Of a stretch of 64,000 nucleotides of DNA, positions 12,080-29,536 are shown piece after piece. The notes beneath the pieces were generated by a model. It was not told the DNA's origin and did no database searches. It was given only the letters and a program-made list of their open reading frames with translations. The stretch is taken from the NCBI GenBank assembly GCA_015179125.1, contig WHVA01000122.1, positions 183,397-247,396 on the forward strand. Direction: 5' to 3'. The first letter of the stretch is position 1. The number at the start of each line of letters is the position of its first letter. Source of the stretch: Gautieria morchelliformis. Lineage: Eukaryota; Basidiomycota; Agaricomycetes; Gomphales; Gomphaceae. A program made the position numbers and the translations under genes.

Positions 12080-13473
12080 TCATAGAGCAGTCAAAGGTCC
12101 CGGCTTGCCCGGATAAGACTCGTGGAAATCGGTGACCAGCTCCGAGGCATGATCAAGCTCGGAAGCGAGGATCCACGAGGTTTCTTCGTCGGTACCTTCG
12201 TAACCAGTCCACCTAACAAGATAGAGTAACTTGCAGCTTTTGCGTCGATTATCGATCTTCGAGTCGAGGATTTCGGAAACCTCAAACTTGGGTTCGCCGT
12301 CGATATCGACTGGGGGCGGAGGTGGCTGAACTCGGTTCGGGATGGTGTTGGGTGAGGCTGGTTCGAGCATAGATACGTGGAATACTGGATGGACTGAATG
12401 CATGTGTTCTGGAAGTCGAAGGGTGAAGGAGTGAGTACCCACTCGGGAAATGATCTCAAAAGGACCCAAAAACTTCTCGGCGAGCTTCTTGGTAGGCTGA
12501 GTTGTTCGGAAGTACTGTGCCTTTACAAAGGCGAGGGATCTGATTTGGAAATCAGGAGCGGGTTTGCGGCGAATATCGGCCGAGGCTTGGTAGGTCTTCT
12601 GAGCCTCGAGGATGGTGAGGCGAAGTTCTTGGTGTAGCTCGTCCAGGTCAACCACAAAGTCTCAAGCTCGTGCCGAGGCGAGGTTGCGCTCGGGGTGGAC
12701 TGCGAGGTTCGGGTGGTAACCCTTATTAGCAAAGAATGGGGATATGCCGGTGGTTGCGCTAGGTGCATTGTTGTAAGCGAACTCGGCGAGGGGAAGGAGT
12801 GAAGCCCAATTGGACTGTTGATAGTTGCAGTATATCCTGAGGTACTGTTCCAAGGTCTGGTTAGCACGCTCGGTTTGACCGTCACCCTCGGGATGATATC
12901 CCGAGGTAAAATGCAACCGCATGTCCAAGGCTTTCCCTAGAGAACGCCAGAAGTGCGAGACGAACTCGGAACCCCTGTCCGAGGTGACGTGCGAGGGAAC
13001 TCCATGCTTGGAAAAGACATGAAGGACGAAGAGGTGAGCGAGCTCTTGCGAGGTTATCTTGTCGGTGGTTGGAATGAAGATAACCTGCTTAGTGAAGCGG
13101 TCAACAATCACTAGTATGGAGGTGAACTCGGATGAAGGGGGAAGCTGCTCAATGAAATCCATAGAGATGGAATTCCAAGGCTTCTCGGGAACTGGAAGTT
13201 GTTTGAGGAGACCATAGGGCTTGTGATGTTGCGGCTTGCTTCGCATACAAGTGGTGCACGTCTTGCAATACTCCTTGACAAAGGATCTAATCCCTGGCCA
13301 AGTGTAGTCTCGTCGGATCAGCTCCAAGGTCTTGTTGACCCCAGAGTGTCCCGAAAGAATGTGGTCGTGCTTGTATTGCAGGATGCGAAGTCGAAGGTCT
13401 TGGGCCGCTGGAACATAGGTTCGGTTGTCAAGCTTGAGAAAACCCTCGGGGTCTGTGGTCCACCTCGGGTCAT
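12080..13473 (-). pseudogene. Gypsy C integrase and chromodomain
   Basis: On the minus strand, the HHCC zinc-binding region (HDHILSGHSG, then CKTCTTC) is followed by the DDE core: MDFIEQLP, TSDRGSEF and GDGQTERANQ. The C-terminal part has the GPFEI fold and a classical chromodomain (EVSEILDSKI, LYLVRWTGY, EETSWI), ending at 12080. A TGA at about 12660 separates integrase core from C-terminus; it stands in an ARA-x-DFVVDL context where the family has Arg. The N-terminal junction with RNase H is split at 13474 by element T; pre-insertion codons read GLV-NDPRW. The chromodomain suggests targeting to methylated histone H3 (known for chromoviruses). Confidence 0.9.
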
Positions 13474-13475
13474 TA

Positions 13476-13975
13476 CACCCGTTTGCAGTACCTAAGGCGC
13501 GCGTCGGATTTGCTTCCGTTTTAGCACGCAAACTTCGAACAACGATATCTTGCTTGATATCGCTCCGATTCGCTTGAAATTTCATATCTGAAGCTATGTG
13601 GACCATAGCTAGGGCATAGAACTAAAAAATCCGAATAAAACAAGCATTTTTTATTTTGCATTTTGGGTGCTGAGGGGGGAACAATGTCAAGCTTAGCTTA
13701 CTGTATGTAGTTCAATGCAGGTTTTAATTTTGTTTGCTACTTTGTACTAATGGTGAGAACCCACTACAGGAGAATCTCCAGAAGAGGGTGTCATAGGATT
13801 GGAGAGGAAGGGCTTAGCTTCTTCTGACATTGGATCAGTGAGATCTGATGGTAGGCGTTCATTCTCGATGTCGGATTTCCTCCTGTGTAGCATAAGCCCC
13901 GAAATCTTTGATCCCTTCCGCACCGAGTGCCAATGCACCATAAGGCAACTTCGCCGATCCTGACATGTTCTCGCG
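13476..13975. repeat. left terminal inverted repeat of element T
   Basis: Reverse complement of 27496-27987 with only a handful of transitions, mostly at CpG, and one 6-base indel near 13925. On the minus strand it carries an open frame ending in SGDSPVVGSHH. Confidence 0.93.
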
Positions 13976-14575
13976 AAGGACGTGGGGGCGGAGGTGGGTG
14001 AGCTGGTGTAGGAGGACGGGGTGGTGGGGAAGCAGGTGGCGGTGGGTGCGGGTGTGGGTGCAGGGACGGGTTGGGCGGCAACGCGAAGGACGCGGGGGCG
14101 GAGGTGGGCGAGCTGGTGTAGGAGGACGGGGTGGTGGGGAAGCGGGCGGCGGCGGGTGCGGATGCGGGTGCGGGTGCGGGTGCAGGTACGGGCGCAGGTG
14201 CGGGTGCGGGTGCAGGTACGGACGGGTGTGGGTGCAGGTACGGGTGCAGATGCAGGTGCAGGTGCGGGTGCAGGTGCGGGTGCAGGTGCGGGTGCGGGTG
14301 CAGGGACAGGTTGGGCGGCGACGCGAAGGACGTGGGGGCGGAGGTGGGCGAGCTGGTGTAGGAGGACGGGGTGGTGGGGAAGCGGGCGGCGGCGGGTGCG
14401 GGTGCAGGTACGGGCGCAGGTGTGGGGACAGGTTGGGCGACGACGCGAAGGACGTGGGGGGCGCACGCTTACGCGGCGGGGTGAGGGGCGCGGAGGTGCT
14501 GGGGTGGGCGAGCTGGTGCAGGAGGACGGGGTGGGGAAACGGGCGGCGGCGGGTGCGGGTGCAGGTACGTGTGCC
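13976..14575. repeat. GC-rich minisatellite next to the left inverted repeat
   Basis: Degenerate units of GGGTGCGGGTGCAGGTACGG alternate with longer repeats (GAAGGACGTGGGGGCGGAGG...) at about 13975, 14085, 14325 and 14445. On the minus strand it would encode Pro-Ala or Cys-Thr-Arg repeats. A shorter version lies next to the right inverted repeat at 27335-27450, so the array has expanded on the left. Confidence 0.85.
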
Positions 14576-14698
14576 CTGGGATACAAATGTGCCTGGGCCG
14601 TGGCGCTCTGCAGGAGTTGAGTGGTCAGACCCCTGGTATGAGGAATACAGGCTGGGATACTCACGGAAGTTGGCCACTGGGGTTATGGGGGAGTTGAC

Positions 14699-14899
14699 AG
14701 GGAGCTGCTGGTACTTGACGGTGAGCCTGTGGAGCTAAGCGAAAAGGCGCGATTGAAGAACAGGGTCAGCAGATGCTTCGAAGCCCGGGGCAAGTTCATA
14801 TGGAAGACGAGTGCCGAACCAAGAGAGGCTGAAGTGTCTGTGGTGCATGGTGTTGTCGATGGTGCAGCGCGGCAAGCCGCCTATTATGAATCGGCATAA
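14699..14899 (+). CDS. short open frame with coding-like composition, in T
   Basis: The frame reads ELLVLDGEPVELSEKARL, then RCFEARGKFIWKT, up to a stop after YYESA. Its composition is protein-like, unlike the surrounding repeat frames. The start lies upstream, in the repeat-rich region, and the gene may be a fragment. I do not recognise the family. Confidence 0.3.
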   Translation, partial: RELLVLDGEPVELSEKARLKNRVSRCFEARGKFIWKTSAEPREAEVSVVHGVVDGAARQAAYYESA

Positions 14900-16857
14900 C
14901 CCGACCAAGTTCAACTTGCCTTACCAACAATGGGAAATAACAAAAATAAAAGACAGCCCACCAAGTCAACACGAGCAACGAAAAAGGTCAAAGAACCTCC
15001 AGAGGAACTGTTACCTGACATAGCGGGAATTCAGGGCAAAGGTCGGTTTATATATAATGATGCTATTTCAAGCTCACCAGTTATTTAGAATCTGTTCAAA
15101 CTACTAGCACTTTTCGACCGAAACGTCAGGCGGCAAAAAAAGTAACTTTTGAAGACTTAGAATCTGAGTCAGGGTCTTCATATGAGGAAGAGACCCAGCC
15201 GGGTCAAAGTGCATCCGAGTCCGAAGCCGAGCCCAACGACCCTAATCGAGACTCAGAGTCTGAAGAGTTAGTAGAGGTGGCAGTTCCCAAACAGGTAAAG
15301 GATATTGATGAACCTGGTATGCCATCATATTTTTCATTTATAATTTGATGCTCATCTCACGGCCTAGTAATTATCTTGCGTGTTCCGGACGGCACTGAAG
15401 CCGAAGGGTTTGTTGAGTGTGTGAAGCTTCCTGCCAATGTCAGTTACAAGAAGGTCGAGGAACGTATCTTCAAAGCGATAGGGTGCTATCAAACAGTGAA
15501 AAAGATGCCGCACCTAGCTTACCGGCTCAAAGGTGTGCGAGATAAACACCTTTCGAAACTGGCAAAAGAAGAGGACTGGGACAACCTCAAGGATGATGTG
15601 AAGGGCGCTCAGGCAAGGAAGAAAAAGGGCGATGCCAGTGGCGTGGAAGTAGACATCGTTCTGGATGAAAGTGTACGTGTGCGTGTGACTTCGCATGGCA
15701 GCCGCATCTGATATTATAAGAATTATAGTACATTGCATCGCTTTGCCATACACTTTCCAAGAAAAGGGACAAAACTGTGACAAATGCAGCTGGCAGGGGC
15801 AAAAAGAAGAAAGCTCGTATTCAGGACTTGAACGCCGATTCTGACACTGAAGGATCTGAGATTGAAGAGCATGGCCTACCGACAAAACGGGAAAGGGATT
15901 TCATGGAGGCATTGAAGGCAGAGTATTCAAACTGTGGCAAACCGGCATGTGCTTCAAAAGTCTGCAAACTGAATAAGAACGGAGATCACATGCATTTATC
16001 ATGGTGCCAACTCCAGTCCTGGGTAACAGCCTTGGTGAGTACAACCTTTGCATTTATATGTATTACTCGCTGCTAATAATGCGAATTTAGGTTTCTAACA
16101 TTCACGGGGTCACTCTGAAAGTTCCTCCAAACAACACTCACTTCGAAGATTTCCATTATCGCAAAGACTCCATTCAAAAAGAGAAGACCGATTACACTAT
16201 ATGAAAACAGCTCGGTGGGTTGTGGGCGTCGAGCTTATGTCAGGTTTTAGGTCAGCATTAGTCAGCTGGCCAATCGGATGTGAGCGGTGCAGCCGCGAGC
16301 CAAGGACGCGAGTGGCGCAGCTGGCCCAAACCGGTTCATGCCGGGCTGCCAGTTTGCGCCAGTCTTCCGGCTCCAGCGCTCAATGCGGCTGCGCAGCGTT
16401 CTGGAGCACGCGAGCGGTGCAGCCACGAGCTTATCAGCGGTTGACGCCGGTCTGCGCGCTCAAAGCAGCGCTGCGCTGGCAGAATGCTGCGCAGCCGCTT
16501 TCGCGCACTCCACCACCACCCTCCTCTCCTCTCTCCCCAGTAGATAGAATAAAATTGTGTGAGAGTGAATTAATAGATAGCCTATATAGTGTAGACTACA
16601 AAAGATCTCTTCCCAAGGAGATCTCTGCTGTGAACTATTGGGGTTGACCTCTTCAGTGGGGCAGCTTTTTCTCTGCTAAGGAGCCAGGTAGTCATCCCAG
16701 GCTGCCTTAGAGGGAGCCACAATTGCATTGCAGTTCTCTTAGTGTTGACTTGCACTACTGGTGGCTGAAGAAGACATCTCCCAGGACCAGGACCAGGACC
16801 ATTTACTGGAATTATTCCAGTTGGATAGCCGAAGAAGACTTGGATATTTTCATCAAT

Positions 16858-17090
16858 CAATTTCCTGTCCCTTCCTTGGTATGTATATATTTCTCTGTGG
16901 TCTGGTGTGAGCCATCTGACATTTATTTATTTTATTTTAAATAGAAATGAATAAATTCCCTTGACTTTGCTTAACAAACAATTACCTGTCCCTTCCTGGG
17001 TATGTATGTATTTCTCGGTGGTCTGGTGTGAGCTGTCTGACATTTATTTAATTAGAAATTAATAAATTCCCCTGACTTTGCCCAAGAAAA
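16858..17090 (+). repeat. tandem duplication in the Helitron leader
   Basis: Two copies of about 115-120 bases, each starting near CCTGTCCCTTCCT and containing GGTCTGGTGTGAGC and AATAAATTCCC, lie head to tail (about 16862-16975 and 16985-17090). They lie upstream of the Rep-helicase frame and may affect transcription. Confidence 0.8.
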
Positions 17091-17389
17091 ATTAACAACA
17101 ACAGCATCTGCTTGCAAATGTAAGTTGAATTCTGGTAGCTTGATTGTTCCTCTAAGCTTATACCTGCATTTCTCAGGTATCCATCTACTCCAGAGAGAAA
17201 TCGTCAGCAGGAGCGTGAAAGGGCAAGGGAGGAGCAGGAGGGTCATATGACATCGCCCACTGATCGGAGAGCACCTGCGCTTGCTGCTGCTGCTGTCAGA
17301 GCTCAGGACCAGCCACCCCTCCCCCACAGCCTTTTGCCATCACTCACCCTCCTCCTAGAAGCAATGTCGCTGATCCTTTTCAACAACCT

Positions 17390-20300
17390 GTGGCCGGGCC
17401 ATCACGTCCTCCTATGCTTGCACCCTCTTCACGTCTGCCCATGCTGGCACCATCATCACGTCCTCCTAATCTCAGTCCTGGAGAGCAGGTGGCAGCCCTT
17501 CATGCTCAGTTAGCAGTTATCCCACCATTACAGCCTCTGAGAAGAAATAGGCCAGACCCTGTACAGCCAGCTCCTATAGTAGGTTCAGCAGCCATTGCAG
17601 ACTTGCGTGCTCAGGTAGCTGCATTGCGGTCTTTGGGAAGGCAAAGGCCTGCATCTGTACAACCAGCGCCTCCTCCTGTAGTAGGTTCTGCAGGAGTGGC
17701 AGCATTGCGTGCTCAGGCCAATGCAATAAGACCAATGCCTCTGCTACTCCCTGCGCTTTTGCAGCCTTTTCAGCGACTCCCTCCACCTCCTCAGCCTCCT
17801 CAGCGACTCCCTGCACCTCCTCAGCCTCCCCAGCCGTTCCCTGCACCTCCTCAGCCACTCCCTGCACCTCCACAGCCTCTTCAGCCACTCCCTGAACCTC
17901 CTCAGCCTCCTCAGCCACTCCCTATACCTCGGCAGCGTCCTCAGCGACCTCCTCCTTTTATTCCACTTGGTCGCTCTAGAATAATCGAGGCAGATGTGCT
18001 GCGTCATGATCTGGGTCCCATGGTTGTTCCCTGCCCTGACTGTGGAGCATTACACTGGATGGCAGAACGCCTGCAGAAATCCTCAAATGTGCGGCCCAGG
18101 TTTGGTGATTGCTGTATGGAAGGAAAGGTGCAGCTGGAAGACCTGCCACAGCCCCCTCAGCCATTGAAACAGCTCTTAGAAGGCCAGGACCCTGAGGCAA
18201 AAGGATTTCGCCAGAATATCAGGCAGTATAATGCTGCGTTTGCATTCACTTCTGTGGGGGCCAACTTTGACCAAGATTTGCTTCGGGAGGGTCGTGGTCC
18301 ATATGTGCTCAAGCTACAGGGTGAACTGTATCATCTCCATGGCTCTCTCCTCCCTGACAATGAAGACGATCCAAAGTATGCCCAGCTTTACATATATGAT
18401 CCTGCACTGGCTTTGGCAAAGAGAAAGAATCGTAATGAGCGTCTGTCTCCAACTATCATGGGAGACTTGCAGGAAATGCTCCTACTATGCAATCCTCATG
18501 TGCGCACATATAAACAAGGAGCTGAGAGGCTCAGAGCTCAAGAACAGAATGGTGACATCCAGGCAAGGCTCACATACAGGGCGCACAGGGATCCTAGGAG
18601 ATATAATGTCCCAACTGCAGATGAGATTGCAGTCGTTCTTCCTGGAGATGGCATCGACCCTGAACCTAGGGATATTATAGTCCAGCTCAGAGGTGGACCT
18701 TTCAGAAGGGTATTGGATACCAATGCAAACTATGCCTCTCTGCACTATGTCTTTCTCTTTCCCAAGGGAGAGTTGGGATGGGAACCAGGTATTCCTTATC
18801 ATGAGCCAGAGCGTGCTCGGCAGGCCAATCCCAATCCAAACAGACGGACACAGGTCACCCAAATACAGTACCATGCGTATCGTCTGTTCCAGAGAGTGAG
18901 AGAACCTACAACACTCCTGTGTGGTGGCAAATTGTTCCAGCAGTACATTGTAGACTCCTGGGCTGCTGCAGAGCAAAGCAGACTGAGGTGGATCAGGGCC
19001 AATCAACACACTCTGCGTGCTGAGCAGTATAACCAGATGGTAGATTCATATGGAGGCTTGGACAATGACATTGGAGATGCAAACAGCTTGGGCATAAAAG
19101 TCATTCTGCCTGCAACATTTCAAGGAAGTACACGGGACATGAATCAAAACTGCCAGAACTCCCTGGCCATTGCAACAAAGAAGGGTCCCCCTGATTTATT
19201 TATTACCATGACTGCCAATCCAAAGTGGGATGAGATAGTGGCCGAGTTGCTCCCTGGACAAACTGCTCAGGACAGACCTGACCTGGTGTCGCAGGTGTTT
19301 CACCTCAAAAAGAAATACCTCATTGACTTGATCGTCAAGGACAAGATCTTTGGAGAAACTGTCACTCGCGTTCACACTATTGAATTCCAGAAGAGGGGGC
19401 TCCCACACATGCACCTGCTTATCTGGTTTGATAGGGAGTCCAAGGTCAAACATCCACATGAGGTGGATTCTATGATTTCAGCAGAGTTCCCTGATCCAGA
19501 GACACATCCTGTCCTCTACCAGTTGGTCTGTGAGCTGATGACACATGGTCCCTGTGGACAAATGAATCCAAACGCACCCTGCATGGAAAATGGCAAGTGC
19601 AAGAAAAACTTCCCAAAGCCATTCTGTGAGGAGACCGTTGTGAATGTAGATGGATATCCAAAATATCGTCGTCGCAATGATGGAAGGCTGCACAATGTCA
19701 GAGGTGACATGGTGGACAACAGATGGGTTGTGCCATACTCTCCTCTGCTCTTGCTCACACTCCGGTGTCACATCAACCTTGAATTCACCTTCAGTGTGAG
19801 GTGCGTCAAGTATATCCACAAGTATCTATACAATGGCCACGATCGGACCATGATGGAGTTTGGTGTCGACCATGATGAGATAAAGAAGTACCTGGACGCT
19901 CGCTATGTCAGTGCTCATGAGGCCTGTTGGAGGTTGCTGGAGCGGGAAATCCACACCCAGGTGCCTGCAGTCATGGCACTGCCAGTCCATGAAAAAGACC
20001 AGCAATCAGTCGTTTTCAATCCTGATGCTGATCCGCTCACCATCATGAACAGGGTGGAGGGGTCAAAGACAGTGCTCATGGCTTACTTTGAGGCCAATGC
20101 TGCCTACCCTCATGCACGCGATGTGCTCTATGTGGATTTTCCTGAGCATTTTACCTGGCAAAAAGAGGAAAGGGTATGGACACCACGTCAAAGGGGATAT
20201 AGCATTGGACGCCTTCACTTTGCAAGCCCAAAATCAGGAGAGAGATTTTATTTGCGCACTCTCCTCACGGTGGTCAAGGGGGCCAGATCCTTTGAGGAGC

Positions 20301-22156
20301 TTAGGACGGTGGGTGGCATACAATGTGCTACTTACAAGGAGGCCTGTCTTGCCAGGGGACTTCTGGAGGATGATCAGGAGTGGAGGTTGTGTCTCCAGGA
20401 AGCCAGTGGCATGAAAACAGGTGCTCAGCTCAGACCTCTCTTTGCCACCATCCTTGGTCATTGCATTCCCTCACAACCTGACAGACTATGGGATGCCTTC
20501 AAGGAGCACATATGTGATGATCTCAGACATCAGCTCCAAATCAGGCACAATATCCAGGAGCCACGGGATGATCAGGTCTATGATTTTGGCCTCTTTCTCT
20601 TGGATAAACTCCTTCAGCGTAATGGAATGTCCTTGAGCAGCTTTAAAGATATGCCTCGGGTGGTAGGCCAGTGGGAGGTCCTGATTGGAAACAGGTTCAT
20701 AGCTGAGCAGAGGGACTATGACCCTGTTCAAGAGAGGCAGATGGCTGATGAGGAGGTTCCCAAGCTGAATGAGGGGCAAAGGTCTGCGCATGATCAGATA
20801 TTACGGTCGGCACTGGACATAGATGCTCAGGGGAAACCTAACGGACAAATGTTTTTCGTCGCTGGCTCAGGGGGTGCTGGGAAATCATTCACATGGAACA
20901 CCCTAATCCACTCCTGTAGAGTGGAGAGTCTCATTGTGCTTGCTGTAGCCTCATCTGCAATGGCTGCACTTATCCTCACTAATGGGACAACCTCTCACAG
21001 CATGCTTAGAATTCCAATTCCTGTCCATGAGGGCTCTCTCTCCTCCATCAAAAAGAACTCTGACCAGGCTGATATGCTGAGACTGGCCAGGCTCATCATT
21101 TGGGATGAGGCTGCAATGCAGCATCACCATGCCATAGAGGCCATTGACAGGACACTGAGGGATTTCCTTGACCAGCCTGACCGACCCTTTGGTGGCATCA
21201 CGGTTGCCTTTGGAGGTGACTTTCAGCAGACTCTCCCAATTGTCCCTAAAGGCTCCAAGGAGGATATTGTGGGAGCTACCCTTCAGAAATCATATCTGTG
21301 GCCAAAGATCAAGGTCCTCCATCTGACAGAGAACATGCAGGTGAGAAATGACCCTGACAGAGCCAGGTTTGCAGAATGGCTGCAGAATGTGGGCCAGGGA
21401 AAGAATCTCCCACTAGATCATACGTTCTCACTCCCTCCTCACATGGTTTGTGGCCCTGGAATTGAAGATCTGATCCAGGAAATATATCCTGGCATTGGCA
21501 ATCAAGTCCCTGCCCAGGACAATTACTTTCTGGAGCGTGCCATCCTCTGTGCCAGAAACACTGAGGTCAATGAGATCAATTCCATGGTGTTTAGGGAGTT
21601 TCCAGGTGATGCTCAGGTCTTGCACTGTGCAAATTCCATTGAAGAATCCGATGATGCAGATCGGTATCCTGTGGAGTATCTGAATTCCATAGAGATGGGC
21701 TGTCTTCCTCCTGCTCACTTGGAAGTCAAGCCTGGAGTGCCTCTGATGCTGTTGCGCAATTTGGATCAGAAGCAAGGACTATGCAATGGGACAAGGTTGC
21801 GGTTGGTGAGGATAAGCATTAGAGTGTTGGAGGTCAGGATCATCTCAGGTCCATGTGCAGGCAATATTGCTTTCATCCCCAGGATCATCATTAAGCCATC
21901 AGAGGGAGAGTTGCCATTTGTGCTGCAAAGGAGGCAGTTTCCAGTGCGTTTGGCATTTGCAATGACTATCAACAAGTCTCAGGGACAGTCTTTGGGTACG
22001 GTTGGGCTGGACCTGAGATATCCAGTGTTTGGACATGGTCAGTTGTATGTTGGTGTATCAAGGGGGACCAATTGGAACAGAGTGAAGGTCTTGCTTGAGG
22101 AGGGTTTGGACACAACCAACATTGTATATAAAGATGTATTACTTAGAGCTCCTTGA
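17390..22156 (+). CDS. Helitron Rep-helicase (HUH nuclease plus PIF1-like helicase)
   Basis: An uninterrupted frame of 1588 codons. It has a Pro/Gln-rich N-terminus with about 5-residue repeats, then the Helitron-like N domain with TMTANPKWDEI. The HUH motif is GLPHMHLLIWF. The two-Tyr motif is KYIHKYLYNGHD. The PIF1 helicase follows: Walker A GSGGAGKSF (about residue 1160), Walker B IIWDEAA, GGDFQQTLP, INKSQGQSLG and YVGVSRG. The catalytic residues look present. The frame has no ATG near its start (GTG at 17390); a better N-terminus (MTSPTDRRAPALAAAAV, from 17247) lies in another frame, so a frameshift in the C-run at about 17320 or an unseen intron is likely. It probably drives rolling-circle transposition of 16192-22305. 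Confidence 0.93.
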   Translation: MAGPSRPPMLAPSSRLPMLAPSSRPPNLSPGEQVAALHAQLAVIPPLQPLRRNRPDPVQPAPIVGSAAIADLRAQVAALRSLGRQRPASVQPAPPPVVGSAGVAALRAQANAIRPMPLLLPALLQPFQRLPPPPQPPQRLPAPPQPPQPFPAPPQPLPAPPQPLQPLPEPPQPPQPLPIPRQRPQRPPPFIPLGRSRIIEADVLRHDLGPMVVPCPDCGALHWMAERLQKSSNVRPRFGDCCMEGKVQLEDLPQPPQPLKQLLEGQDPEAKGFRQNIRQYNAAFAFTSVGANFDQDLLREGRGPYVLKLQGELYHLHGSLLPDNEDDPKYAQLYIYDPALALAKRKNRNERLSPTIMGDLQEMLLLCNPHVRTYKQGAERLRAQEQNGDIQARLTYRAHRDPRRYNVPTADEIAVVLPGDGIDPEPRDIIVQLRGGPFRRVLDTNANYASLHYVFLFPKGELGWEPGIPYHEPERARQANPNPNRRTQVTQIQYHAYRLFQRVREPTTLLCGGKLFQQYIVDSWAAAEQSRLRWIRANQHTLRAEQYNQMVDSYGGLDNDIGDANSLGIKVILPATFQGSTRDMNQNCQNSLAIATKKGPPDLFITMTANPKWDEIVAELLPGQTAQDRPDLVSQVFHLKKKYLIDLIVKDKIFGETVTRVHTIEFQKRGLPHMHLLIWFDRESKVKHPHEVDSMISAEFPDPETHPVLYQLVCELMTHGPCGQMNPNAPCMENGKCKKNFPKPFCEETVVNVDGYPKYRRRNDGRLHNVRGDMVDNRWVVPYSPLLLLTLRCHINLEFTFSVRCVKYIHKYLYNGHDRTMMEFGVDHDEIKKYLDARYVSAHEACWRLLEREIHTQVPAVMALPVHEKDQQSVVFNPDADPLTIMNRVEGSKTVLMAYFEANAAYPHARDVLYVDFPEHFTWQKEERVWTPRQRGYSIGRLHFASPKSGERFYLRTLLTVVKGARSFEELRTVGGIQCATYKEACLARGLLEDDQEWRLCLQEASGMKTGAQLRPLFATILGHCIPSQPDRLWDAFKEHICDDLRHQLQIRHNIQEPRDDQVYDFGLFLLDKLLQRNGMSLSSFKDMPRVVGQWEVLIGNRFIAEQRDYDPVQERQMADEEVPKLNEGQRSAHDQILRSALDIDAQGKPNGQMFFVAGSGGAGKSFTWNTLIHSCRVESLIVLAVASSAMAALILTNGTTSHSMLRIPIPVHEGSLSSIKKNSDQADMLRLARLIIWDEAAMQHHHAIEAIDRTLRDFLDQPDRPFGGITVAFGGDFQQTLPIVPKGSKEDIVGATLQKSYLWPKIKVLHLTENMQVRNDPDRARFAEWLQNVGQGKNLPLDHTFSLPPHMVCGPGIEDLIQEIYPGIGNQVPAQDNYFLERAILCARNTEVNEINSMVFREFPGDAQVLHCANSIEESDDADRYPVEYLNSIEMGCLPPAHLEVKPGVPLMLLRNLDQKQGLCNGTRLRLVRISIRVLEVRIISGPCAGNIAFIPRIIIKPSEGELPFVLQRRQFPVRLAFAMTINKSQGQSLGTVGLDLRYPVFGHGQLYVGVSRGTNWNRVKVLLEEGLDTTNIVYKDVLLRAP

Positions 22157-22995
22157 TTTTGTTATATCCACTTCTCTTGATATGGTTTATGTGTTTTACT
22201 TCATTTTACTTCATGCAAATTGGTTACTTTTATTTTCCCCAATGCACTTGACCTTACCGATGCATTTGACCTACACCCCTGCGTGAAGCGCGGGTACCCA
22301 CCTAGTGAAGGGTCAACGGTGAACCTGCCCGGCGCTGCATTGGGTCTTCAAGGATCATTTCCTATGATGATGTTCCCACCAATTGACTATCGAATGTTTC
22401 CTCAGAACATGGTCCTGAACCGCCCTGTTACTCCAGTCAATCCTGACAAGAGACCGGAACAGTTGACCCCTGCGACTCCTGGTGACATCGCTTACCCAAG
22501 CATCGAAGAGTTTCTTGACGATGTCCGTAATTGGCCTGAGGCTAGGGGGCGGAACATTGACGAATTCAAAGGTAAATCTGAAGCAAACAATGTTTACTTC
22601 CTAAATGAACTGAAGGAGGTGACGGCTGATGTGCTCATGGCCAACATCGGGATGTCATGGGGTGACGCGAATTTCATCAAAGGAACAGCTAGAAAGGCTA
22701 TAAGGAAGCTTGCTAAGAAGGTGTGAGAGGGAGGGAGGCAAGCAGAATTATGCCAGTAGGACACAATAATTAGATTTACTATATACATCAAAAAGAACAA
22801 TTTAGAGAATTATGGATATTTGAGATTGGTGGCCTTAGTACTGTCTGAGGCAGCGCACGGCACATTATTGGTATTTAACCTTGAGGCCGCTACCACCAAC
22901 ACACCGCAAGAATGTAGATGGTTCACTTGTCACGTGACTTGTCCGCATGTTGACAACAGCTCTGCCTCTCAGACTCGCACAACATAGTTCTTTAC

Positions 22996-25316
22996 TTGTT
23001 GTCTGCCTCTAATTCTCGATATTTGTTATTCCAGATGCCATCAACACCACCCCAATCTCTCAAGCTTCCGTTGATGACGAGCACACCATATAGCGTCAGT
23101 TCCAGTAAATCTCATGAATCACACATTCGGACCCAGGATGATTTGAAAAAGCTGATGAAGGGTGAGTTCTCCGGTGCGATATTCGAGAGTAATTCTCTGC
23201 TTGAAGAGCGCTGTCGGGCGGATCAAAAAATTGTCGACGCTGTCCTATCCAAACTGAAACCTGGCGTGTTCTGGGACAACCCAACCGACACTTTCAAGGA
23301 ATGGCCCAGCCGCACTGGTCCAGAAAGCGCTCATTATGCGCCGTTGGAGTGGTTACTCAACCAGATTCTGTCCATCTCCTCCCAAAAGCTGCCGAATGGC
23401 AATATCCACTGAGGTCTTCAGTTTTACGTGTACGGTCGGGAAATGGCTGAAGGACTTGACACAGACTCCTCCCTAAAACCAGACCTTGTTGGTTGTCAGT
23501 CTGTTGGTAAGAGCCGAGGCTGAAATTTGCGTAGAGGTGAAGAATACCTGGCCTGGTTTCATCCTGCAGTCAAGCACGTATGCGTGCTGTATGTTCACAC
23601 ACCGATTGGATAGGCTCTTCGTCACTGTTATCCATTTCAACAACGCAACGATGGGGGTGCGCTTCGGATTTTATTCTCGCATGGGTCTGGTTGTTACGCC
23701 GGAACTTGACCTCTCGAAGGAGGGATGCTTTAAAGGATTTGTTCGCGGAGTGGTTGGGATTAATTCTTGGACCGACACAAACCACGCTGGAATCGATACT
23801 ACTCGTACCATCACAGACATTGCGATTCCCGAGAGGGGTATATTCAAGATTTCAAAAACACTTTGTGACCAACGTTGCGTTCGTGGACGAGCAACGCGTG
23901 TGTATCTTTTGGTCAAGAAGCGTGCATTTTGACGTTTAGAGATCTGGGCCAGTAGTTAACAATTGGGTTTGAAGGTGCAACCGCCACCGATGGTTCTCTC
24001 GCTCAACCTTCATCCACTCACCAGTATAACTTACGAAGTCACCAACCCCTGCGTTCTCAGCCTGGAAAGAGACTGACGGTCGAGAACCCTTGAGGTTGAA
24101 GGGAGGCATATCTTTGCTCTTGCCGGACACTGTCATTCTGAAAGATTCATGGCCATTGAAAACCCATAACGAAGAAGGCACAATGTTTGGAGTGTTATCG
24201 GGTGGATTTGGACTGCCAGACATCCTTGTCTCATACCCTGTCGAGGACGGAATGGATAAGCTCATACCTGATGACGCAACGTATTGGCCCATGTGTGCGC
24301 CAGAGCCATACGCCGGGGTTAGGCCTGACGAACGAATACATATGCGATCTGTTTTTGAGACCCGAGGGACGTCACTGCGAGCTGCACAAAGTCCTCGATT
24401 GCTCGTGCGTTGCATAGTGCACGCCATGTTGGGTATGTGAACGAAGAGGGCATCGGACATGATTTACCTATAATGGTGATTGACAGGGAATTTTGGCTGT
24501 TTAAGAACGGCTGGTTGCACCGTGACGTAAGTGTCGGGAACGTCATGCTGATGGATGAAGCTGAGCGGCCGCCTGTGGCAGATTACGTACCGTCTTTCAC
24601 ATCAGTCCTTTCGTTTTTTTATGTTTGCTTCAGTTTTGCCATGACTCGAGAAGTTACTAGATGTGTGGGATTCATATGCGATGGGGACCAGGCGATTCGT
24701 TGGATGGATCAGAAGCGGGAATTAGCAAAGCATCACTCGGTGGGTCTTTAGTTGTTGTGTGCGGCTTGTGATTTACATGGTTCTAGGGTACGCTGCCTTT
24801 CATGTCTCAGGTGCTGATTGTTGCTTGGGACTCTGGAACGCAAGTTGTGCACCAAGTAATTGATGACCTGGAGTCGTTTATATGGGTTTTATTTTGGTCG
24901 ATTCTGGAGATTCTGGAGACCAAGGGGGCACTCGCGCGACTAGAACAGAATTACCGTCAAACGATGCTCTCCAGCGCGTTACCTGTGTTACAAGCTAGGG
25001 GAAGTTTCCTTGATAGGTTAAAGCAACAGGATGCGGCGAAAAACTTCTCCACGGGCTTCAATCCATTCTCCAAACTCTTGATTCAATGGTTAACACTTTC
25101 TCGGGAGACTGCTCTGGAATGGCTGACACCAGACTTTGTTAAGGTGAACGCCGATGAGTACACTTTACAGGCCACCAAGCTATACAGGCAGTATGTAACG
25201 ATTGGGCTTGAATCTCTTTCAGACCTGCCAGAGAGTTGGGATTATGTTAATGAGGGGGAAATGACAGGTGAAGAGAGAGTTGAGGAGGGGGAAATGACAG
25301 GTGAAGAGAGAGGATG
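22996..25316 (+). CDS. FunK1-type fungal protein kinase gene (multi-exon, possibly degraded)
   Basis: Several frames joined by putative introns give a FunK1-like order. An N-terminal helical part (from ATG 22996 or 23035) is followed by the pre-kinase segment (LFVTVIHFNNATMGVRFGFY). The ATP-lobe Lys lies in VILKDSWP, the catalytic loop is WLHRDVSVGNVML, and the C-lobe has HQVIDDLESFIWVLF. A tail has a tandem pair of 24-base units (25248-25295). In-frame stops between segments (for example TGA at 23410) may be introns or lesions; I cannot settle which. FunK1 kinases are expanded in Agaricomycetes. Here the gene is carried between the inverted repeats of T. Confidence 0.75.
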
Positions 25317-25508
25317 AGCTGGGAAAGACCGCATGTAACGCATGACATATAATATTATGAGATCCTGTAGCCACTGTAGGAAGAGTGGGCACTTACAATG
25401 AGTACTTTTTGCACTACTAAGTGTTGTTTACCAATATGATCCATCACATTGCAGATAATTTTCAACATTCTGACAACAAAAAAATTACATTACAGTAGTA
25501 CAACTGCA

Positions 25509-26713
25509 CTACAGATAGCCACAGTCCTTCATCCACCCTCGCGCATGTCTGCGTGTAATCCGATCCAGTGCCTCATAGAGAAACATGAATAGCTCAGCCC
25601 TCTCCTTACTTGTAACACATGCACGGAACTCAGCACCATGACGTCTGAGGTGAGCTTTGATGAAGGAGAATGATTCTTCGATCGGGTTGAGATCGGGCGA
25701 GTACGGCGGAAGATACATCAGTTTGGTTCCTCTGCAAATGCAAGATTAGACACTAGTGAAAACAGTTTATAATGGTAAAAACCTTTGGGCACATAAGAGT
25801 GAGACCTCAGGTATGTGGTGAATGGCGCAGTTATCCATAAGAAGAACACTCTGTAGTGCCGGGTAAGGGTTCATTACCTCTACAAGGCCCTTCAGAAACC
25901 CAAGGAACTCTGGACCGTCGTATGCCCCTAATTTGATATGGCTATAGATGATTCCATCTTGTGAGAGCGCCGGAAGGATTGAAATCTGAGTGGATATTAG
26001 CGATACAATAATGGAGGCCCATGCACAAATTGTTACCTTTCGCCCCTTTGGAAACATGCTCGCACTCGAGGCCTACATCCCTTGTAAGCCCATCCCATTA
26101 GTCTATACGTTGTGCGAAGGTCAATTGCGCTTTCATCTGTGAAAACCAAACGGTCCGGTGGTTCACTACCAATACGAAACTGGAAAGCAGTCCGCGAGGC
26201 TTCACAGCGCTCTGCGGCTGCCCGTGAAAGCTGGATTGGAGACAAATATAAAGGTTGTCATTCTTCGAGGATTTAATGACACACTGTCTTTCTTTGCAAG
26301 CCAAGATGTCGAAGCGTCCTCCAGACAGTTGATATACTTACTAAAATACCATGCTGCACCTCTAGCTCTTCGACAAGCTCATCGAGGTAAAGATTGGGCG
26401 AGCATTCAAGAAGCGCAAGAAGAAACTGTTATAATATAAAATAAGCTACAGCTAAACACAGACATGAATTACTTACTTCACTCTGAGCTGAGGTCATTTT
26501 TGACCCATGAGATAGCCGCTTTGGCTCTGCCACGACGTCTCCAACATCCCGCCAGAGTTTGATTGTGCATTGAACTACATGTAGTGACATATCGAGGTCA
26601 ATTGCAATATCGGTTGATTTCTTGTTGAGCTTTAATTTTTGGTGTATAACGCGATCCCGCAGATCCTTGCTGTACATGTGACGAACAGGTTTAGGGTTGC
26701 CAGGGCGAGGCAT
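25509..26713 (-). CDS. DD34E transposase (Tc1/IS630-like), spliced
   Basis: Minus-strand exons. A helix-turn-helix N-terminus ([36 protein letters not shown]) ends in an intron with GTAAGT...AACAG (about 26473-26410). A second HTH part ([11 protein letters not shown]) is followed by a GTGTGT...CCAG intron. Then come VFTDESAID (first Asp), [10 protein letters not shown] (second Asp), and after an intron ending [18 protein letters not shown] (Glu). Exactly 34 residues separate the second Asp and Glu. One exon junction near 26045 does not keep frame, so a one-base lesion is possible. The family cuts and pastes at TA, matching the TA flanks of element T. Confidence 0.85.
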
Positions 26714-27334
26714 ATGAGCGATGGTGTGGGTAGTACATACAAGGAGAATGGGATTTCCCGAAACACACACCCTGACCAAGAATTCTATGACATGAATCGT
26801 GCGACAGCACTTGCACCCTTACTCCCAATGCTGAACCCCAACTCAAGTGTAATTTTCAGGTGTCGAATGGCCACTATCCCGTTTTTATTGGTGAGTTTGC
26901 TACTTATGCTTACTTTACATCCTCGCTGAAAGGGCTGTCACGCGTCCCAACTACAAGTCCACCATTGTGACTTGAAGTGCCCTTTCTACTCGTACAAGCA
27001 CGAGCAGTTCCTTCCTGTCGTCCACCCGCACCCCAACCGACCGTGGCTCCATCACTCCTACCGTCAACACCCTCGCGATGACCACCGCCACGTCCCGCGC
27101 CTCCACGCGCTACCGCAACACCAACCGCGGCGACACCCTCGCATGCCTCGAGGGCCGCCAGCCCAGTCGTGTCACGTCCGTGCTCCCATCCCTCTACCGG
27201 CTGCCGTTTGGGCCGGTATCCCCCATGTCCCCTGCGTGGAGTCCCCTGTGTGTCAAGGTGTGTCGACGCCCCTGCACCCTGCTAACCGTATGCCCAGTCT
27301 CCTCACGATGAGCTCCGTGTCGTCCATGCTGCAA

Positions 27335-27450
27335 TCGCACCCGCACCTGCACCCGTACCTGCACCCGTACCTGCACCTGCACCCGCTGCCGCCCGCTCCC
27401 CCACCACCCCATCCTCCTACACCAGCTCGCCCACCCCAGCACCTCCGCGC
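27335..27450. repeat. short GC-rich minisatellite next to the right inverted repeat
   Basis: CACCCGCACCTGCACCCGTACCTG units mirror the expanded array at 13976-14575. Plus-strand frames would give Pro-Ala-Pro or His-Leu-His repeats. Confidence 0.8.
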
Positions 27451-27495
27451 CCCTCACCCCACCGCATACGTGTGCGCCCCCGCGGTTTCTGAGCT

Positions 27496-27987
27496 CAAGA
27501 ACGTGTCAGGATCGGCAAAGTTGCCTTATGGTGCACTCGGTGCGGAAGGGATCAAAGATTTCAGGGCTTATGCTACACAGGAGGAAATCCGACATCGAGA
27601 ATGAACGCCTACCGTCAGATCTCACTGATCCAATGTCAGAAGAAGCTAAGCCCTTCCTCTCCAATCCTATGACACCCTCTTCTGGAGATTCTCCTGTAGT
27701 GGGTTCTCACCATTAGTACAAAGTAGCAAACAAAATTAAAACCTGCATTGAACTACATACAGTAAGCTAAGCTTGACATTGTTCCCCCCTCAGCACCCAA
27801 AATGCAAAATAAAAAATGCTTGTTTTATTCGGATTTTTTAGTTCTATGCCCTAGCTATGGTCCATATAGCTTCAGATATGAAATTTCAAGCGAATCGGAG
27901 CGATATCAAGCAAGATATCATTGTTCGAAGTTTGCGCGCTAAAACGGAAGCAAATCCGACGCGCGCCTTAGGTACTGCAAACGGGTG
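27496..27987. repeat. right terminal inverted repeat of element T
   Basis: Mirror of 13476-13975. Differences seen are mostly single C/T or G/A changes at CpG sites. The plus strand carries the same 62-codon frame (27528-27716) as the minus strand of the left repeat, ending SGDSPVVGSHH. Confidence 0.93.
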
Positions 27988-27989
27988 TA

Positions 27990-29536
27990 ACCAAGCCGAG
28001 GTGCGACTTGGCTATGGGGTCCGAGGGGAGGTTCGCTAGTATGTCAGCTCAGATCTGCTCGGTATCAAGCAGTGAAGCGGCTCGGAGTACGACGGGAGCG
28101 AGGTTAGTAGTTCTAAGGGACGATGCCAGCTGGTGTTGAGTAAACACTGGCCGTAGGGTCTGTGGGTTTATGGTGGCATAGTCGCTATTCCCCTCTTTAA
28201 GGTAGACATCCCATCGTCTAGTGAGAGAGTCAGGCTTCGTTCCGAGGCAACCAGGTCGGAAGCGTATGGCGAGGTTGAACTGGGAAAGGTATTCTGACCA
28301 CCGAGCTTGTCGACGGGTCAAGAGCTTCGTAGTTGAGAAGTATTCTAGGTTCTTGTGATCGGTGATAACGTCGACAGGGTCGCCAGAGCCCTCGAGGTAG
28401 TGTCGCCAGCATTGAAACGCTTCAAAAATGGCTAGGAGCTCCTTGTCATGAACATTGTAGTTGAGCTCGGTAGAGGTGAATGTGTGGGAGTGGAAAGCAA
28501 CGGGATGAAGTTCGCCTTCCGAGGTTCGCAGTGATAAGATTGCCGCTAAGGCATAATCTGAAGCATCAGTCTCTACGATTAGTGGAAGGTCAGGAATCCA
28601 GTGGGTAAGGATAGGAGCGGTAGTGAACGCCTTCTTCAACAGGTTGAAAGCCTGCCGACAATCCTTGGAAAAGTTCCAAGGGGTACCCTTGCGGGTGAGT
28701 CAGGTAAGAGGAATGGTGATGTCGGAGTAGTTGTGAATGAAACGTCGGTAGAAGTTGGCGAAACCGAGGAAGGACTGGATGTCGCGAACTTTGCGAGCTT
28801 CAGGCCAGTCTTGAATGACCTTTACCTTGTCTTCTGCCATAGTGAGGCCCTCGGGAGAGAGTATGTAGCCGAGGAATTCAACCAAGTCGTGATGAAACTC
28901 GCATTTGTCTTCTTTGGCGAAGAGGTTGTTGAGTCGCAGTCGTCGCAAGATTTCCTTGACATGTTCAACATGTTTGGAGGGGTCACTGGAGTAGATTAGA
29001 ATGTCATCCAAGTATACCACCACACAAACATCCAAAAGGTCGGCGAAAATCTCGTTCATGAATCTCTGGAAAGCAGCAGGGCATGGCATAACCAACCATT
29101 CAAAAGACCCATAGCGAGTCCTGAAGGCGGTTTTCCATTCGTCACCCTCGGCCACCCGTACGAGGTGGTAAGTGTGACGAAGGTCAATCTTCGTATAGAT
29201 GCGAGCATTCTTTGGAGCATCAAGTAAGTCAGCAATCAATGGCAGTGGATACTGATCTTTTTTCGAGATCTTGTTTAAACCTCGGAAGTCGACACATAAC
29301 CGAAGTGAGCCATCTTTTTTGCGAACAAACAATACCGGTGCACCATAAGGCGAGCGTGAAGGTCGGATGAAACCGATGTTCAAGTGCTCGTCGATGAACT
29401 CGCGAAGTGCTTTGAGTTCGGAAGCCGAGAGAGAGTAGATGGGACCGATAGGCGGCGAGGTCCCTTCTTCGAGGTTGATTTTGATATTGTGGGGTCGGTG
29501 GGGAGCTAGAGTGTCAGCGCGTGCTTTGCTGAACAC
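27990..29536 (-). pseudogene. Gypsy C reverse transcriptase and RNase H
   Basis: On the minus strand, RT begins with a conserved linker and has [24 protein letters not shown] and YLDDILIYS. The segment usually reading VMPFGLTNAPAAF is shortened to VMPCPAAF, so five residues of RT motif 4 are lost. A TGA at 28700 (T-x-LTRKGTPW, normally Arg) separates RT from RNase H. RNase H has ETDASDYALA, DKELLAIFEAF and ITDHKNLEY, and a second TGA at 28049 (TEQ-I-x-ADIL, normally Arg) precedes the linker to integrase. The frame continues across element T into 13473. Confidence 0.9.

Follow-up and report, generated by a model that had tools for sequence, protein, structure and literature searches.

Tc1/mariner elements are usually minimal, one-gene transposons. 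In the excerpt of PMC7325037 available to us, Tc1 elements are about 1300 bases long with a single open reading frame, and Minos-type members have repeats of several hundred bases. The TBE elements of Oxytricha, according to the available parts of PMC4724952 and PMC12242761, are three-gene Tc1/mariner transposons in which one gene is opposite in direction to the others; one product is a zinc-finger/kinase protein, accessory proteins of 22 kDa and 57 kDa are described, the terminal repeats of TBE1 are 78 bases long, and the TBE target duplication is ANT. Here we describe a candidate transposon, T, in a window of 64,000 nucleotides from the fungus Gautieria morchelliformis (contig WHVA01000122.1, positions 183,397 to 247,396); all positions below are those of the window. 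T is likely a damaged member of a Tc1/mariner (DD34E) cut-and-paste family with two core genes, for a transposase and for an orphan protein, and a cargo bay, which in T holds a FunK1-type kinase gene.

ToxhAT and the Starships use other transposases (hAT and tyrosine recombinase), and the Starships are much larger than T. In the excerpt of PMC12506042 they are, like T, fungal transposons with genes beyond those for movement. The TBE elements are the closest precedent, and a kinase in the Tc1/mariner superfamily is already known from them, as far as the TBE excerpts go. Compared by description, T differs from TBE in being fungal rather than ciliate, and in its repeats of about 495 bases, its TTAA target and its introns; its FunK1-type kinase is a separate gene, and no homologue of its orphan protein was found outside Gomphales. 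T resembles Minos and other long-repeat Tc1 elements of the PMC7325037 excerpt in DD34E, long repeats and possibly a TA target duplication, and differs from Tc1 there in having three genes and 8.4 kb. The main text of a review of giant transposons (PMC6431247) does not mention mariner or Tc1, and a Paracoccidioides paper (PMC3203195) discusses both FunK1 and transposons, unlinked in the part available. No publication on this lineage or on a FunK1-carrying Tc1/mariner element was found among open-licence PMC titles and abstract openings.

The first-pass annotation of this stretch had proposed a giant transposon with TA duplications, inverted repeats of about 490–500 bases, a spliced DD34E transposase gene, a FunK1 kinase gene and a multi-exon orphan gene, and had regarded it as carrying cargo. 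The outline of T is as follows.

13476..27987: T, candidate transposon (14.5 kb including a nested Helitron)
13474..13475: left TA, in a TTAA target context (TTA ahead of the end; the empty site in L025 is TTAA)
13476..13971, plus strand: left terminal inverted repeat (499-base match, TTA included, in other copies)
13972..14600: left GC-rich subterminal repeats (borders approximate; variable among copies)
27330..27480: right GC-rich subterminal repeats (approximate)
27498..27987, minus strand: right terminal inverted repeat
27988..27989: right TA, adjoining the right end of T

The repeats proved to be as annotated. The inverted arms 13473–13930 and 27533–27990 (458 bases) are 99% complementary and extend inwards for a further 38 bases at 95%, giving about 495 bases each, with TA at both ends. 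Terminal inverted repeats are a Tc1/mariner trait, although this length is unusual. The 11-base end, CACCCGTTTGC, had 178 matches in the 122-Mb genome versus 9 for a reversed control, and the exact 22-base end had 134 versus 0. Because these counts far exceed the controls, the ends are not due to chance. The annotated giant unit stood as a repeated unit, bounded by inverted repeats, with a Tc1/mariner-type transposase and a host-type kinase, but not as to its size: a Helitron of about 6.1 kb, missed in that annotation, lies inside, and T without it is about 8.4 kb. This length and the three genes still depart from the short, transposase-only form that is usual, though not obligatory, in the superfamily.

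For the analysis of copies, we used 17 end-paired copies (T included), which are 17 of the 18 convergent pairs no more than 25 kb apart among the first, listed part of the 178 CACCCGTTTGC ends; the pair on C150 was left out. The copies were mostly 93–97% identical to T, and we therefore infer that the burst of the family was fairly recent. T itself is damaged, with frameshifted transposase and kinase genes and an orphan gene split by the Helitron, and none of the 17 copies had all three genes clean. The flanks of two copies, L009 and L020, matched at 97–99% while their interiors differed by about 3–5%; these represent the same site in two contigs, either via duplication or in two copies of a repeat. 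In L001, a T end sits inside the terminal repeat of another T copy.

The transposase gene was present in all 17 copies, and its exons in T are placed by a splice model.

26477..26713, minus strand: transposase exon 1
26288..26425, minus strand: transposase exon 2
26039..26230, minus strand: transposase exon 3
25782..25988, minus strand: transposase exon 4, with a one-base frameshift in T
25512..25730, minus strand: transposase exon 5, with the catalytic Glu

The DDE_3 domain was found in T, and the transposase spliced from another copy matched it with 96 bits (2.2e-27). Along the splice model of intact copies the predicted spacing is D-34-E, as in Tc1/mariner; the annotated spliced DD34E gene was thus recovered with five exons. 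The N-terminal helix-turn-helix typical of such enzymes was seen as HTH_33 at its cut-off, with HTH_32 and HTH_Tnp_Tc3_2 below the cut-off. The frameshift in T is relative to the other aligned copies. Ten of the 16 other copies had five clean exons, although exon 1 of two of them (L013 and L016) has an insertion in its final codons. The clean-exon test accepts exons lacking up to 5 terminal residues and takes no account of splice sites, and it passed over T's frameshift and these two insertions.

Counts of disabling changes, shared stops and nonsynonymous versus synonymous (N/S) changes were made against one anchor or a consensus of the 17 copies. Disabling changes were rarest in the transposase gene (0.70 per kb), followed by the orphan gene (1.89) and the kinase gene (2.03). 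Stops common to several copies were found at six sites in the kinase gene, four in the orphan gene and none in the transposase gene. C to T and G to A accounted for most of the changes across the three genes (414 of 674), an excess expected if the copies were methylated.

The first-pass annotation had named two findings that would speak against it, a transposase with its own short inverted repeats and TA duplications inside T, and T ends occurring only without a transposase. Neither was found. Four inverted pairs turned up in T, one of them flanking the transposase gene, but the best were 16 bases at 81% and 14 bases at 86% and none was convincing; only a palindrome was found around the transposase of a sister family (family 2, below). 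Short repeats of the gene's own were therefore rejected.

Insertion was almost always at TTAA. TTA preceded 40 of 43 T end rows in the retrieved copy sequences (one end counted twice, as L008 and L028), 129 of the 134 exact 22-base ends genome-wide and all 26 exact family-2 ends; the further copies with the same ends and TA flanks sought in the first-pass annotation are thus abundant. Empty sites were identified for three insertions, T, L010 and L016, and all read TTAA, the filled form being TTA...TAA. T's host sequence is a Gypsy-like retrotransposon, and an uninterrupted copy in L025 reads GGTCA-TTAA-CCAAG; the whole 131 bases of the uninterrupted site matched in all 40 places scored (of 296 candidates, that of L025 included). 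The empty site of L010 had eight matches from seven sources, that of L016 a single match. The target is TTAA, with its TA doubled or, equally, with insertion between TT and AA; of the TA duplications that had been claimed, a TA-containing target is supported.

The two halves of the retrotransposon split by T, named by the look of their translations, lie on the minus strand at 13001–13472 and 27991–28498. A copy of the same retrotransposon lies inside another T copy (L025:4657–5142); each family thus has a member nested within the other.

Five exons make up the orphan gene, whose product is an acidic protein with a conserved Cys/His cluster.

14930..15040, plus strand: orphan exon 1 (model)
15088..15294, plus strand: orphan exon 2 (model)
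15382..15672, plus strand: orphan exon 3 (model)
15762..16034, plus strand: orphan exon 4 (model), with the Cys/His cluster
16091..16192, plus strand: orphan exon 5, first part, interrupted by the Helitron
22306..22726, plus strand: orphan exon 5, second part, to the stop codon

It was present in 15 of the 17 copies. Its seven database relatives comprise six from Gautieria and a distant one from Ramaria rubella (2.4e-6, 20%), and none of the seven lies outside Gomphales. Searches of Pfam and solved structures gave nothing convincing and no nuclease-like Pfam match. Among the matches listed (101 orphan places from the listed part of 171 matches, and 150 transposase places scored of 369 candidates), 64 of the 101 orphan places were within 15 kb of a transposase place, versus about 3.7 by chance.

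Family 2 was recognized by its ends, TTACACCTGTTTGCAGTACGTAAGG, which matched exactly at 26 places and with no more than one mismatch at 70 (control, 0); some of the one-mismatch matches resemble the end of T just as closely and could be copies of T. Over 195 bases, the family-2 repeat is 79% identical to that of T. A 10.2-kb copy at C1 carries both the transposase gene, which begins about 80 bases inside the repeat, and the orphan gene, in the same convergent layout as in T. Between T and family 2, the ratio of nonsynonymous to synonymous substitution rates (dN/dS) was 0.077 for the transposase (dS 1.06) and 0.151–0.168 for orphan exons 3–5 (dS 1.25–1.28). The low dN/dS and similar dS suggest that the two genes travelled together under constraint. 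Because it is common to the sister family under purifying selection, the orphan gene appears to be core rather than cargo; the reading of it as mere cargo was rejected.

The cargo of family 2 is different. FunK1 was absent from the family-2 copies read. Between the core genes of the C1 copy lies a fragment with UBA (6.1e-11), UBA_7 (1.4e-11) and DUF913 (2.8e-7) domains, a combination that we take to be the TOM1/HUWE1 architecture. This TOM1-like fragment was found on six contigs, each with a listed transposase match. A copy at C286, 94% identical and in an open frame of 916 residues, has no listed transposase and is therefore the likely donor. A shorter derivative (C164) keeps one edge of the fragment, and short family-2 copies such as C347 (L030) carry a C-terminal fragment of a P450 (3.1e-6). 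From these contents, the middle of the element looks like a bay for captured host genes.

The orphan gene was also sought at other loci. L033 has a more distant transposase (43–48%), and its orphan homologue is broken into three pieces (2e-7, 3e-6 and 1e-4; best shuffled control 0.23). L031 has repeats of about 500 bases starting with TTACAG, inside which the orphan matches were only weak (0.018, and one of 2.1 that falls in the range of the shuffled controls). No orphan homologue was found in L029, which is cut by the contig end, L030, L032 or L034. Outside the repeats of the L031 element, at L031:194–856, there is an orphan relative (0.0025 and 0.27) with a similar Cys/His pattern.

The annotated kinase gene was also recovered, in four coding blocks.

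23035..23929, plus strand: FunK1 coding block 1, broken in T near 23516–23520
24066..24437, plus strand: FunK1 coding block 2
24485..24739, plus strand: FunK1 coding block 3, with the catalytic loop
24787..25314, plus strand: FunK1 coding block 4

Pkinase_fungal was found in T, and the spliced L020 copy matched it with 124 bits over nearly the full profile (3–386 of 387), as expected of a FunK1 kinase. For the question of copies with or without FunK1, which the first-pass annotation had raised, at least part of the gene was present in all 17 copies, in contrast to family 2. All four blocks were clean only in L020, where a 1.27-kb insertion lies between blocks 2 and 3. None of 28 database relatives exceeded 35% identity; the capture would therefore be old, or the donor would lie outside the searched collection. 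Of 36 T-like kinase places, 30 had a listed transposase place no more than 15 kb away (chance, about 1.3), versus 1 of 38 other FunK1 places; the 36 and the 38 were assigned by hand from 118 FunK1 matches, the remainder, mostly further exons of the same loci, being dropped. A second repeated FunK1 group, whose members resemble one another in frames and stops and have no transposase listed close by, was seen on contigs C305, C981, C332, C482, C207 and C257, perhaps in another mobile carrier.

Copies, ends, target, gene content, the homology of ends and core genes in both families, and the likely host source of one cargo are established. For the mechanism, we propose that the transposase encoded near one terminal repeat would recognize the long repeats and excise the unit, which would then insert at TTAA, doubling the central TA rather than entering between TT and AA. 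The resident DD34E transposase would be what moves T. The second core gene, near the opposite repeat and pointing towards the transposase gene, would supply the acidic Cys/His-cluster protein, probably an accessory DNA-binding or regulatory factor that may assist transposition. The putative bay between the core genes holds FunK1 in the T family, the TOM1-like fragment in family 2 and the P450 fragment in its short derivatives.

Several observations weigh against this proposal. In T, the transposase gene lies between the arms of a weak inverted pair (25481–25496 and 26841–26856, 16 bases, 81%). The sequences expected from TA doubling and from insertion between TT and AA are indistinguishable. 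The stops shared in the kinase and orphan genes, small in number, suggest that copies spread with those genes broken, and N/S within the family was near neutral for all three genes, so that selection on the kinase is unsupported. All five orphan exons were clean in none of the 17 copies. L010 and L012 have perfect ends and no orphan gene, which may be dispensable in cis, and L032 and L034 have related transposase genes without a detected orphan homologue.

T could instead be a composite, formed when a short Tc1/mariner element inserted early on into a different transposon with long repeats, the true transposase of which is elsewhere or is the orphan protein. The length of T, well beyond what is usual in the superfamily, and the weak pair around the transposase gene would fit such an origin. 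However, the ends and the transposase are homologous across two families, the family-2 transposase gene lies close inside the repeat with no inverted repeats of its own, the TA-containing target fits the superfamily, and the orphan protein lacks a nuclease-like Pfam match; we regard a composite as improbable. The TTAA target would also fit a non-autonomous passenger of a piggyBac-type transposase, a reading that is very unlikely with a resident DDE_3 DD34E transposase and two bases doubled instead of four; membership of piggyBac itself was rejected because only TA, not the four-base TTAA, is doubled. The open 1630-codon Rep-helicase frame inside T could point to the Helitron as the mover, with the repeats captured by it. 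This explanation is scarcely credible and was rejected: the region 16192|22306 was held by 14 of the 16 other copies (all but L010 and L012) and was uninterrupted and Helitron-free in all 14, and the Helitron has its own ends (97 matches) and its own A|CTAG|T junction.

The kinase might be part of the element's machinery, for example in control of the transposase by phosphorylation, and not cargo. Its presence, at least in part, in every end-paired copy and the zinc-finger/kinase protein of the ciliate TBE elements (in the excerpts of PMC4724952 and PMC12242761) favor this role, which nevertheless appears unlikely given that the only clean blocks carry an insertion, that stops are shared and N/S is near neutral, and that the family-2 copies read lack the gene. 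A wider reading is rather doubtful, though less so: a Gomphales lineage of Tc1/mariner with two core proteins (the DD34E transposase and a lineage-specific Cys/His-cluster protein), near-exclusive insertion at TTAA and an exchangeable bay (kinase, ubiquitin-ligase fragment, P450 fragment), in which the kinase may have come to serve the element's own life cycle, in parallel to the zinc-finger/kinase protein of TBE. Our confidence in it was lowered because of the insertion in L020. 

Gene movement within fungal genomes would gain one more vehicle in a fungal Tc1/mariner lineage that combines captured host genes with near-strict TTAA targeting and a second conserved gene. Such a lineage would allow tests of whether larger DNA can be moved by this enzyme class with the help of an accessory protein, and of whether the many FunK1 kinases of mushrooms include some that are really transposon genes.

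The nested Helitron accounts for the split in orphan exon 5.

16192..22305, plus strand: nested Helitron (A|...CTAG|T junctions, one base ambiguous)
17264..22153, plus strand: Helitron Rep-helicase open frame (1630 codons, stop to stop)

The frame matched Helitron_like_N (1.8e-56) and PIF1 (1e-63), and the CTAG 3′ end and the A|T insertion without duplication are likewise those of a Helitron. It resembles the fungal Helitrons in the excerpts of PMC4289320 and PMC5148889 in its Rep-helicase, CTAG end and A|T site, with the difference that this 6.1-kb insert is a passenger in T and not its mover. The matches to its ends allowed up to two mismatches, and the 5′ end was preceded by A or G in the majority of the 97 places. 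Among 29 protein matches scored (of 6085 candidates), 28 were further near-full places, and 26 of the 29 had no stop. The Helitron family is thus high in copy number, with mostly open Rep-helicase frames.

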